From positions 16,733,019-16,797,018 of the forward strand of contig OX291546.1 of the NCBI GenBank assembly GCA_946406115.1: a stretch of 64,000 bases of DNA, written 5' to 3'. Each line of letters begins with the position of its first letter. Position 1 is the first letter of the stretch. The position numbers were made by a program, and so were the translations under genes. The notes beneath the pieces were generated by a model that saw nothing but the letters and a program-made list of their open reading frames with translations, ran no database searches and was not told the origin of the DNA. Positions 45,801 to 51,800 of the stretch are shown here, piece by piece. The stretch comes from Apoda limacodes. Its lineage: Eukaryota > Arthropoda > Insecta > Lepidoptera > Limacodidae.

Positions 45801-48800
45801 CTTATTAGTATCTTATGGCGGCGCTAGTTTGGCCTTATTTACGCTTTAAGAGAATACGATTCGAAGCGCCACTCAGAGGGCTTCATACAAACGAATATCT
45901 TACTTATTTTCGGCACTTGCTGATCAAACGCTACAAGATTTTGAAGACATTTTCTAGTAATAAATATCTAGATCTGCAGTGTTTTATAATTCCAAAGTTA
46001 TATAGAATTTAAGGTTATCATACAAATGGTTTTAAAAAAGGTATTTCTAGTTAATAAAACTATTTTACAAGATTTTGAAAAACCACAGACATAGGTATTC
46101 GGCTTCGGATTATGACTAAGAAATTGCACAGTGATTGATCAGTAAATGACAAAAACAAATGAGAAATTAATTTGTATGAAGCCCGCTACGAGGCGCCGCG
46201 AATCGTATCCTCTTAAGTAAGATTGATGTACTAAAACTCCATAAGCTCTAGTAGATGTTTTTATGACGTTCGTAACCAGCGTATTTCCAGAGTAAAGTCA
46301 GGATTTTCATTGGCCAGACATGTGCCTTGATAACTCAATTGTTAGAACACGTTTACGAACTATAAGCATTGTTGCAGGTTGAAGTCCTGGCTCAAGGTTA
46401 ATCTTTTGACTGTGCCTTTGCCATGGAAATATTTATTTACATTGATAATATAATTTTCATAGACTTTGTGGTGATTTTAATGCTATTTAACACAATTTCA
46501 TGCTTGGAAAGAAATGTATGAATTCAATGATTTCAACCTTTTAAGAACATGGTGATTAATGTCATTTGCATACATGCGGTATGATAGACATCAGATTTTC
46601 TGTCTAATAAATACCATTTAAATAGTAATTAATGTTTTTATCTTATTATTTTTAGGGTAATTAAAAACTGTAAAATATTTTAAATTTCGATTAGTTATTT
46701 CAAAAGCATTTTAAAATTGATATGTATGAATAAAATTATAAAAATAATGTTACAATACTATACGGAATAAATAATATAATAGCTATATAATGTTGTCCTT
46801 AAGTTCATTTTTTATTTAAGTCTCAGATAATACAGTACATCCTATTTAAAAAAAATATACAAATAAAGTAAATAACAGAAGAACATTTTATATTTTACAA
46901 AATACAATTTTAGTTGACATTTATAAACATGCACTAAGCTACTAAATTGAATTCTATGCAACTTTACCGCCTTGCTTACTTAGATACCATGTAGTAACCA
47001 CCTAATATATAAACGTAACTCCAGTCGTAATTACAGTGCAACAAACTTTTCTGACCCTCTGATCAGGGTGTTTAGTCGCTAGTGTCGTTGTAAGTTCACA
47101 CCATTTCAATATAGCGACTGTAGTTTTGATTTAAGACCACCGGGTCAGAAAAGTTTGTTAATTTATACCATGCAAAGTGATTAATAAAAGCCAAAACAAA
47201 AACCAATAAAAAACCATTAGCACAATAACAACAAATAGCGTTTGACTGATGATTAAAATTAATGATGTTTAAGTTGATTTTACACCGTCTTTTATTTTAT
47301 TTACACTGTAGATGTCCATATTTGGTATTTTTTTATTCGTACCCAACAGTAAAAGATGTTCTAAACGACGTATAGAAGTAATGGACTCCATGGTCAGTGA
47401 GAGAGTCGTTGGCAACATCATAGCTAAGGTCATTTGAAGTAGGTTGAACATTTGAGCCATCGGGAACGCCTGTGAAAATTATATTCACCTGTACAGTTTT
47501 GGATTTTCGAATAAAACCATGTTTAGCTCTTGTGTTGGCGACCGCAACCGTACTAAATACCAAATACCGAAATAAAAAATAATATTGTACATGTACAATT
47601 CCATTGTCAAAATGACGTTACGTTTTAGATAACAGTAGGTAATGATTATATTATATTTACTGACTTCCTTTATTTACAATTTTTTGTTTACTTTATTTGT
47701 CGATTTGCCACTTTTTTGTTTACTTGATAAGTTTCCAACCTATTTTTGAAAAAACAATGTAATTATTTCTTTTCTAATAATTCTATTATCACTTGCATCA
47801 TTTTAATAGTGAGTACTTTTATAATGTAAAATATATATATGGTCATGTAGGATTAACTTCTTTGTGATCTTTGGAAGAGTGTTTCATTGGTCATGGCACT
47901 GCCCGCGCACGCAACCGAGTTTCTGATCGGGCTATGGATCTTGTTAGTAAGCGGTTCTTAAAGTGTATGTGACCCAGTACGACTAACTTCTTTGCGTAAC
48001 TGTTCTTTTTTTTAATAATATTTGCATAAAAGTAAATATGGTCGAGTAGGATTAACTTCTTTGTGTAATCAGTCTTTTCAATATGCTGGTATTAAAGTAA
48101 ATATGGCTAAGTAGGAATAACTTCTTTTTGTAACCAGTCTTTTTCCTAAGTGGGTCTTGAAGTAAATTTTGTCAAGTGAGATTAACGTCTTTGTGTAACT
48201 TGTATTTTCACTAATAAGTTCTTATAATGTAATATGGTCACGTACAATTAAATTCTTTTCATAACGGTTCTTTTTACTCAGAGAGTTTTAAAGTGAATAT
48301 GGTAGGATTAACTCTTTTGTGTAACTGATATTTTTACTAATCGGATTTTAAAGTGTATATGGTCAAGTGAAAGACTTATTTGTGTAACTGGTATTTTACT
48401 AAGTGGGTATATGTTTAAAAAAGCGTTGGAGATATTACATCATTGAAGCAATCAGCAACATAACGTAGACAGGAAGACATAATTAAACGCAACGTTTACC
48501 CAATATTCAAAACACATTTAACATATAAACACATATAACATATATTCTGTGTCATCGTACCAAATAACATAAGACGCTCAATACGTTGAATAGAAGTAAA
48601 TGATTCCATTATCATTGACAAACTGAGTGGCAACATTATAGCTACGGTAGATTGAAGTAGATTGTACATTTGGGCCAACGGGAACGCCTGTAGAAATCAC
48701 AATTTCTGATAAACAAGGTGCATTGAAGAATATATTTTGAGTACCTAGTATTTAAGTAACTATATATTTAAACGTATTAAATCAGTTATTTTTGTGGGAT

Positions 48801-51800
48801 TATCGGGGATAAGACACAATAAGACATTTTGGGATATTCAAAGTATAAAAAACATATATAGTCCCACCTCATATTATATTAATTTTCAATAATTTATCCT
48901 TTTTCATGTAATTCTTATTTTTTTCATTAAAAAAAAATTGTATCTCGGTTAGTATTTGCAACTATTTATTAATTTTACAAAATCTAAATATTTTTTACAC
49001 TATCATTTCAAGCTTTTTTACACTAAACAACCGTACCCTATTATGTTCATTAGAAATACTAAAGGCATAAAGAGATGTTAATTACGGTGACGAGTACAGC
49101 TATAATTCGAACTCGTGAGGCAAATAATTATTGCAGCAGAAATACAAGACTTGCGTAAGTAACTTGTGCAAGTAAATATAAGTCATGTTCTGTTTACCGA
49201 CATAGAGAAGTACACATTATGCACTTAATGTCAATTATCCAACTGTAGTGAAAAGCGAAGGTTTGTACTGCTGTGCCATATAAAGAAGAAGAAGGAGAAT
49301 GCCCATTTTTAGCCAAACGATGCCCACCAAATTTGATTGACTTGAAAAAAAAAACTTTCTTTAAAAAGCTCACAATATGAATTGTTTTACTGTAGAACTC
49401 AAAATAAGTAAAAAAATGTTTTTTTATGTTTGACATTTTTATAGATGCTTTTTGGGAATCAGCCTTTAAAGTCTGCGAAGGAGCGTGAATTTTAGTGTAG
49501 ATCATATTAATATTTTTTATCTGTAAATAGCAGAAACTAAAAGGGATAGAGTGACATAAAATAACAATTAGCGTCCCTATGTAAAAATGATTTTTCTGAA
49601 AAAATAAAAATGTGTGCTGATTATTTTTAATGAAATTACAGCATAGTCTATTATGAATATGAATAAATATGTTTTTCTAAGTGTACACTTATGGCTAGAG
49701 CAACTATGGATGATAATAAATAAAAAAGTCTGTAACTTAAAAGCCTCAACTTTTTTCCCAGCCGACTTCATTCTTAATGCTCTTATAATATAGAATATTA
49801 TCATGTGCATATGTTTTCCTATGTAAGCACTAATAGCCAAAGAGGCCAAAGACGGTGGGCATTCCCCTTTACGTTTTTTTTAACTTAGCTGGATTATAAC
49901 ATTGAACGCATTTAATCTGTAAACAAAACAAGCCTATCGATAGGTTGTGCTCAGTTGAAACATGCCGAGACCGTTCAGGTCTCACATACCGAGTAACATA
50001 AAAGTTTCAAGACGTTTCACGGAAATCAGCGCCTCGGCCAAAAAGGACACTGCATTTGACATAATAATTGATAAGGTCCCTTGTAGTGTGTTGTAGAATT
50101 GAGCCAGAGGGAACACCTGGAAATTATAATTGCATATATCTGGGCGAAAATGTAAAGATTAACAAGCTGGAAGAAGAAGAAAAACTATGGCTTACAATAT
50201 CAGCTGTGACTTGGTAGCCGAATAAAGAATAGGACAGCAGTGTGATGTAAAGGGTTAGCCTTTCTGTAAACACCATGAAGCTCAAATAGACTCCTCGAAG
50301 GTAAGATGCTGAAGTAATGCAGTTAATTTCGTTTTTCCGAGCCAGAGCCACGACTTTTTCAAATGGCTTCTCCCACGCATACATTTTTATCACCTGTAAC
50401 AGTAAAAATATGTGTTCTTATGATACTTTGTATTATTTTGGATTTACAACGAAGATCTCTCAATCAGTTCTTCAGAGCGTTTTCCATATATAAAAATAAA
50501 ATATTGCTGGGTTATATTATTCTGTCCGTGGTCTTTAATTTACCACTAATTACCCTAAAGCCCGTAATTACGATTATGGGACAAAAATGGATGAATAAAG
50601 TCACCTCAGTCCAGGAGATGGGATTATTACCTGTCACCTGCCTTTGTGTGCTGCACGTACAAACATACAGACAGATAATCAAAAATTCTAAAGATATTAA
50701 AAAGACCCATATTTTTTTTGTAAATTTCCATGTACAGACATCGGCTATATTCTAGTTACAATTTTATTATATGTAAAGATGGCATTTATAAAAAAAAAAA
50801 TTTGTAACTACGTTTATAGTGACAGTCATATTCAATAAATAATCAAGAAGATAGTTAACGTTATTTTTTGTACTCGGTACACTAAGATTACAAAAATGGA
50901 TGTACCTGCATGCCATTGATAATTTCGTCCATAATGCGCACACGTTCATCGGTCCTATGAGCGGTCTTCATTCGTAGTCTTGCAGCCAATTTGCTCATGT
51001 AAGCTGTAATAAAATTATTTAATTACTAAATGATGCCCACGGCTACTTTCTACCATCGCACCGCTCGCCATCTGCAGGGAATTCATCCTCAGACTTTAGA
51101 ACCTAAATAGTCACTACACGTACCTACATTGCGATTTCAGAAACTTCCTGCGAATGCTTCGGTTTTGGAATGAGCTCCCTGCTAAAGTTCTTCAAGAAAG
51201 AAGTTATTAGATTTTTAAATAGTTGACAATAGTCCATAGGCTGCTTAGACCGCTTACCATCAGGCGGACGGTTAGCTTGTTTGCCACCTCAGTGGTATAA
51301 AAAAAATACATACAAGTAACGCTCACAAATGCATGGAAAAAGGAAATGACAAGGAAATTGTATAAAAAAAATTAATGGAAAAATCAGCAGGTATAATTAC
51401 TTAAGCTCACTCCATAAATAATATTCTTACTATGTTCATATTTTGTTTTGTATTGTATTGTATTTAATTATTAAAATATAACACAATTTATTTATCAAAC
51501 AAAATACTTGTAAATTAATAAAAACAAATTACTACTTAAGCTCACTCCATAAATAATATTCTTACCATGTTCATATGTTGTTTTGTATTATATTGTATTT
51601 AATTATTAAAATATAACACAATTTATTTATCAAACAAAATACTTGTAAATTAATAAAAACAAATAACTACTTATGCTCACTCCATAAATAATATTCTTAC
51701 TGTGTTCATTTGTTGTATTGTATTGTATTTAATTATTTAAAATATCACACAATTTTTCTTGACTATTAATAGTAAAAAAATATTGTATGTATTTAAATTC

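Follow-up and report, generated by a model that had tools for sequence, protein, structure and literature searches.

Three tandem candidate alternative exons for transmembrane helix 6 in an MRP4-like ABCC gene of the moth Apoda limacodes

Does one ABCC gene of the moth Apoda limacodes encode three interchangeable versions of a single transmembrane helix? The question is raised by a stretch of 64,000 nucleotides (nt) of contig OX291546.1, C6:16733019-16797018 in a genome of 800 Mb and 31 contigs; the whole stretch is called the window below, and positions are counted from its first letter. Matches to gloverin, a lepidopteran gene family, occur at five places in this genome, in line with a lepidopteran source. 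On its minus strand, three similar exons (7A, 7B, and 7C) follow one another within an ABCC gene, each encoding transmembrane helix 6 (TM6). Our analysis favors, with a probability of about 0.8, mutually exclusive splicing that would yield three isoforms of an MRP4/ABCC4-like exporter differing in TM6. The TM6 exon (exon 7) would have been duplicated twice in tandem, exon 6 would be joined to one of the three variants and that variant to exon 8, and the resulting proteins would be equal but for 42 residues, comprising TM6 and its cytoplasmic end. If nature indeed exchanges exactly one pore-lining helix of a multidrug exporter in this way, the gene would offer a ready-made test of the role of TM6 in substrate choice, and in moths this kind of gene is tied to the responses to xenobiotics and Bacillus thuringiensis (Bt) toxin.

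Anatomy of the exon array

As summarized in Table 1, exons 7A, 7B, and 7C share a length of 127 nt, and all three start in phase 0, end in phase 1, and are preceded by AG and followed by GT (donors GTATGT in 7A and GTACGA in both 7B and 7C). All are open in the frame of the gene; among the remaining two frames of each, only frame 2 of 7C is free of stops. The first-pass annotation had described three such exons of one phase and without stops between two flanking exons, and its coordinates, frames, and borders were all confirmed, as was the placement of exons 6 and 8. Joining exon 6, any single variant, and exon 8 gave one open frame of 158 residues, while stops were encountered in each of the five other outcomes examined (skipping of all variants, AB, AC, BC, and ABC), since the exon length of 127 nt is not divisible by three and skipping or ordered multiple inclusion therefore breaks the frame. 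Tandem mutually exclusive clusters are recognized by like exon length, the same phase, splice sites of their own, homologous protein, and a frame broken by combined inclusion or skipping; each of these was found in the array, and the anatomy proposed by the annotation thus appears to be that of mutually exclusive exons. Products with skipped or multiple variants would be removed by nonsense-mediated decay. This frame arithmetic accounts for the removal of wrong products, not for the picking of one exon.

An assembly error, or the merging of fragments from neighboring ABCC genes, could in principle imitate such an array, and the gene indeed sits within a cluster of similar ABCC genes (C6 16.1-17.4 Mb). 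Nevertheless, exons 6 and 8 are each single around the array, at least 26% of bases differ between the copies and still more between the introns, and nine other TM6 exons of the genome are only 26-40% alike to 7A-7C in protein, so that we regard this explanation as very improbable.

The four introns of the array measure 79, 1302, 1091, and 1761 nt, the second separating 7A from 7B and the third 7B from 7C. Introns of more than 1 kb are too long for steric hindrance between exons, and this cause of exclusivity was rejected for the two introns between variants. Incompatibility of U2 and U12 splice sites was rejected as well, as the donors (GTAAGC, GTATGT, GTACGA, and GTACGA) look U2-type. A search of Rfam gave no match in 45000-51200. 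Stem-loops behind the donors reached z scores of -1.9 for 7A (8 of 200 shuffles as good), -2.0 for 7B (10 of 200), and -0.1 for 7C. Directly behind the 7A donor, at 49967-49983 of the minus strand, lies a perfect six-pair hairpin, GAGACC/GGTCTC, within the 71-nt stretch that gave the z score of -1.9.

Divergence of the copies and their single-exon relatives

When the 321 same-strand open frames of at least 28 amino acids in 28001-64000 of the window were compared with one another, the three exons stood out as the clear coding repeat, with E values of 1.6e-11 (A-B), 4.3e-11 (A-C), and 3.7e-20 (B-C); the other matches look like mobile elements and intron repeats. Amino-acid identity was 43% for A-B, 40% for A-C, and 64% for B-C. 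At the DNA level, the local alignment score of the exon pair was reached by none of 200 shuffles for B-C and for A-C and by 2 of 200 for A-B, while the scores of the neighboring introns, reached by 40 to 189 of 200 shuffles, were not above chance, and the ungapped repeat between 7B and 7C stops no more than about ten bases from the borders of the exons. Silent divergence (dS) was 1.33 (A-B), 1.00 (A-C), and 0.69 (B-C), and replacement divergence (dN) was 0.47, 0.55, and 0.24, respectively, giving dN/dS ratios of about 0.35, 0.55, and 0.35. The silent excess, calculated from rounded counts, had p values of 0.009 for A-B and 0.010 for B-C. Because the similarity ends at the exon borders and silent changes exceed replacements, the copies look to be under selection.

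Whole-genome searches with 7A and with 7C, in which only the best candidates were scored, listed the same 12 places. Besides the three copies, these were nine further loci, eight of them on C6 at 16.1-17.4 Mb and one on C18. At genome scale these nine are weak (E 0.04 to 9 in one search and 0.15 to 3.6 in the other); each of them, when read locally, has a TM6 match with E below 1e-4, flanked on one side by a match to the TM5 exon and on the other by one to the exon of nucleotide-binding domain 1 (NBD1), the weak flanks being TM5 in L003 (E 0.046) and NBD1 in L008 (E 0.64). Within the TM5-NBD1 intervals of the nine loci read, no second TM6-like match was found at E <0.05; of the weaker ones, the longest lies in L009 and looks like the start of exon 8. 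TM6 is thus single at all nine, a count that does not take in an MRP4-like gene at C6 18.73-18.75 Mb, which was not among the matches. Six of the nine carry TM6 on a single, separate exon of 127 nt whose borders and phase are those of the array exons, which indicates that the 127-nt unit is a natural exon. In L001, L003, and L008, TM6 continues from the preceding coding sequence with no separate 127-nt exon. The C6 loci (L001-L007 and L009) make up an expanded ABCC cluster with four near-identical gene pairs, whose TM6 exons show 88-93% protein identity and a dS of 0.06-0.50. As the dS values within the array exceed those of the pairs, the array would be older than these gene pairs if rates were alike.

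Alternatively, splicing may draw on just one or two of the three exons, the others being relics of duplication that are rarely or never spliced in. In 7A, serine replaces the TM6 proline (P370 of human MRP4) that is kept in 7B, in 7C, at all nine related loci, and in human MRP4, and the donor GTACGA of 7B and 7C is a less usual one, both of which would suit relics. Against this, open frames, splice sites, and conservation limited to the exon are found in all three copies, and the silent excess holds for the A-B and B-C pairs. We therefore consider relics improbable.

Several results do weigh against mutually exclusive use of three selected copies of one exon. The silent excess for A-C (p 0.06, from rounded counts) is not significant on its own, and in a tree of the 12 TM6 exons (42 columns) the three copies formed one clade in only 4% of 200 bootstraps; a single origin of the three is still compatible with this tree, and its use for ordering the duplications was given up, the alignment being too short. 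Pairing of a docking site with selectors upstream of 7B and 7C was matched by equally good pairing in 19 of 40 and 7 of 40 shuffles in a test on one sequence that has little power. Finally, exon 1 was not found in the approximately 49 kb searched upstream of exon 2.

The variant helix and the ligand pocket

When exons 6-8 were joined in each of the three forms, the best chain among solved structures was MRP4 in every case, with 72.6 bits for the form with 7A, 70.5 for 7B, and 69.5 for 7C. For the latter two this was an MRP4 sequence other than 8bjf, the chain that supplied the numbering, which scored 64.9 and 67.5 bits, and the other ABCC chains reached at most 32.2 bits, with no non-MRP4 chain above that. 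The gene that carries the array has both transmembrane domains (TMD1 and TMD2) and both nucleotide-binding domains (NBD1 and NBD2), and the Walker A, signature, and Walker B motifs are legible in both NBDs. The lepidopteran ABCC1-3 group is one that we take to be MRP4-like. The variant exon aligns to residues 351-392 of human MRP4 (chain 8bjf), that is, to TM6. Accordance with the first-pass annotation, which had called the protein an ABCC4-like exporter and the variable segment its TM6, is good on both counts, as far as alignment and motifs can tell.

In human MRP4, L363, L367, and F368 of TM6 are ligand contacts in structures determined by cryo-electron microscopy, the L363A and L367A substitutions lower the activity of the ATPase, and transport of a cyclic AMP analogue is affected by mutations at L363, L367, and F368 (PMC10202912 and PMC11948813). 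At 363, 367, and 368, chain 8bjf carries the same residues as these papers give for the human protein. At these three positions, 7A has G, I, and I, 7B has S, I, and M, and 7C has M, M, and M. All three variants are identical at 14 of the 42 positions, including E378 and R385, the two invariant positions among the eight rows aligned, and several of residues 380-392 vary between the copies as well. Since the isoforms differ at TM6 positions that line the ligand pocket of human MRP4, they would probably differ in substrate range or turnover, and substrate switching between them is plausible.

A different use of the array is possible, if on balance doubtful: all three exons may be spliced in, with the choice setting stability, trafficking, or amount of the transporter instead of its substrate range, for example with 7A as a weak or gated form or with double inclusion as an off switch. 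The frame arithmetic, which makes skipping and double inclusion unproductive, would fit this role, and so would the missing proline of 7A and the differences within residues 380-392, whereas the differences at the ligand-contact positions 363, 367, and 368 speak for an effect on substrates. With regard to substrate differences among the isoforms, we tentatively suggest that the three exons could re-tune the ligand pocket of one MRP4-type pump, 7B and 7C being ordinary forms of TM6 with differing pocket side chains. Exon 7A, which has glycine at the L363 position and serine where every other row compared keeps the proline, could be a straighter form with a wider pocket that serves another cargo or mode of gating, the choice depending on tissue or diet; here the serine in place of the proline is supposed to straighten the helix or widen the pocket.

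Known alternative exons and the layout of the locus

Exons 2-6 of the gene match exons of its paralogues, and of four paralogue regions that were searched, two have a coding exon 1 ahead of the exon-2 homologue, which makes TM6 exon 7 in those genes. If the gene has a single coding exon 1, as these two paralogues do, its TM6 exon would hold rank 7 too. In L019, the paralogue exon 1 encodes about 73 amino acids, with no transmembrane segment visible by eye. Two copies of one paralogue exon 1 (L015:2867-3079 and L014:427-639), about 7.6 kb apart, lie upstream of the gene in L006 and represent a tandem duplication or an assembly repeat, other matches sharing the same spacing.

This rank bears on a precedent in the diamondback moth. 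ABCC1 of Plutella xylostella (PxABCC1) has two alternative exons, 7a and 7b, and a large first intron, as well as two TMDs and two NBDs; the exons of ABCC1-3 have very similar sizes and the same phases; and one PxABCC1 isoform, its amplicon unchanged in size, was found by sequencing midgut complementary DNA (Guo et al. 2015, PMC4395465). We infer that this isoform is the 7a/7b swap. Exons 7a and 7b probably belong to the same locus or to a closely related one that has two copies, and the midgut isoform would show in RNA the type of splicing that we propose. The two genes are alike in having two TMDs, two NBDs, and alternative exons, at rank 7 in PxABCC1 and probably so here, and the long first intron of PxABCC1 (about 15 kb) may be set beside the distance of about 49 kb in which we found no exon 1; in contrast, three copies are present here and two there. 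A published account places the lepidopteran ABCC1-3 cluster among transporters without five extra N-terminal helices.

Alternative internal exons had also been mentioned by the first-pass annotation for Drosophila MRP, a member of a different ABCC group. This is borne out by the published record: CG6214 has two clusters of mutually exclusive exons, with 2 and 8 members, and all but one of these exons were seen in RNA (PMC4588896); the gene is named as an MRP1 homologue in the title of Grailles 2003. It shares with the present gene the tandem alternative internal exons of an ABCC exporter, but our gene resembles MRP4 most closely. For several phyla, exon arrays in MRP genes are ascribed to independent tandem duplication, with splicing guided by intron pairing (Yue et al. 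2017, cited in PMC6071210); tandem exon duplication in an MRP gene is common to them and to our case, while intron pairing was not found here in a single-sequence test. CG6214 orthologues with splice variants are reported from Anopheles and Trichoplusia ni (Labbe 2011, cited in PMC4234516), and these too are insect ABCC genes, T. ni being lepidopteran, yet of the CG6214 type and not the MRP4 type (PMC4234516).

The splicing terms sought were absent from the main texts on the ABC genes of Tribolium, arthropods generally, the spider mite, and Daphnia, and alternative exons or splicing were not mentioned in a paper on ABCC2, ABCC3, and ABCC4 of H. virescens (PMC11047971), nor alternative splicing in an ABCC2 mapping paper (PMC3002984). 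Three TM6 exons in an ABCC4-type gene were not described in the parts of the literature covered, which lack most subscription papers. It is doubtful that the case is undescribed for ABCC4-type genes, for which the first-pass annotation knew of no description, and the novelty is reduced, because PxABCC1 has exons 7a and 7b (PMC4395465). The array is real, and its arrangement is probably a larger version of one already known. The Plutella precedent suggests that the array may be widespread among Lepidoptera and may vary there in the number of copies, in which case its evolution could be tested.

The ABCC gene begins outside the window, past its right-hand border, and extends leftwards to about 30.9 kb, with exon 2 in L011, exons 3-6, the array, exons 8-12, TMD2, and NBD2 in this order (Table 1). 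A further, last NBD2 exon likely lies below 30949.

Table 1. Exons of the ABCC gene in the window
Feature	Position	Strand	Length	Remark
Exon 3	62062..62266	-	205 nt	TM1-TM2
Exon 4	61106..61331	-	226 nt	TM3-TM4, ABC_membrane
Exon 5	50906..51003	-	98 nt	
Exon 6	50196..50393	-	198 nt	TM5; common donor of the array; phase 0
Variant exon 7A	49990..50116	-	127 nt	TM6, without TM6 proline
Variant exon 7B	48561..48687	-	127 nt	TM6
Variant exon 7C	47343..47469	-	127 nt	TM6
Exon 8	45432..45581	-	150 nt	Linker to NBD1; common acceptor of the array
Exon 9	41146..41348	-		NBD1 Walker A (GSVGSGK)
Exon 10	39407..39571	-		NBD1 middle
Exon 11	39183..39320	-		NBD1 signature LSGGQ
Exon 12	38353..38520	-		NBD1 Walker B (LLDD); GTATGT donor defines 3' border
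TMD2 exons	34211..35950	-		Five stretches resembling the neighboring paralogue; borders approximate
NBD2 exons	30949..33920	-		Four stretches; borders approximate; Walker A (GRTGAGK), signature (SLGQ), LDEAT

Within the introns, we observed a minisatellite of at least six diverged copies of units of about 65 nt between 7B and 7C (47811-48397), a 939-residue open frame with reverse transcriptase and endonuclease domains (LINE-like) on the minus strand of intron 4 (54115-56934), and a second reverse transcriptase fragment in intron 8 (42226-43347). The plus strand of 1-9200 holds the 3' half of a neighboring ABCC gene, which has its TM6 exon in L004; this gene and the array gene are convergent.

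P-glycoprotein, located on Bombyx chromosome 15 (PMC8145640), was tried as a synteny marker for C6 and rejected, as the stretch at 18.73 Mb proved to be MRP4-like and no match to Bombyx chromosome 15 was obtained. A self-comparison for other exon arrays, made on four more ABC stretches that comprise seven loci on C12, C13, and C24 (one strand of each), brought up NBD repeats of two-domain genes and mobile elements. On the minus strand of L027-L028 (C12:21860000-21879800), two similar TMD exons (FFDxTPVGRILxRFSKD) lie about 2.3 kb apart and represent either another exon duplication or two adjoining genes.

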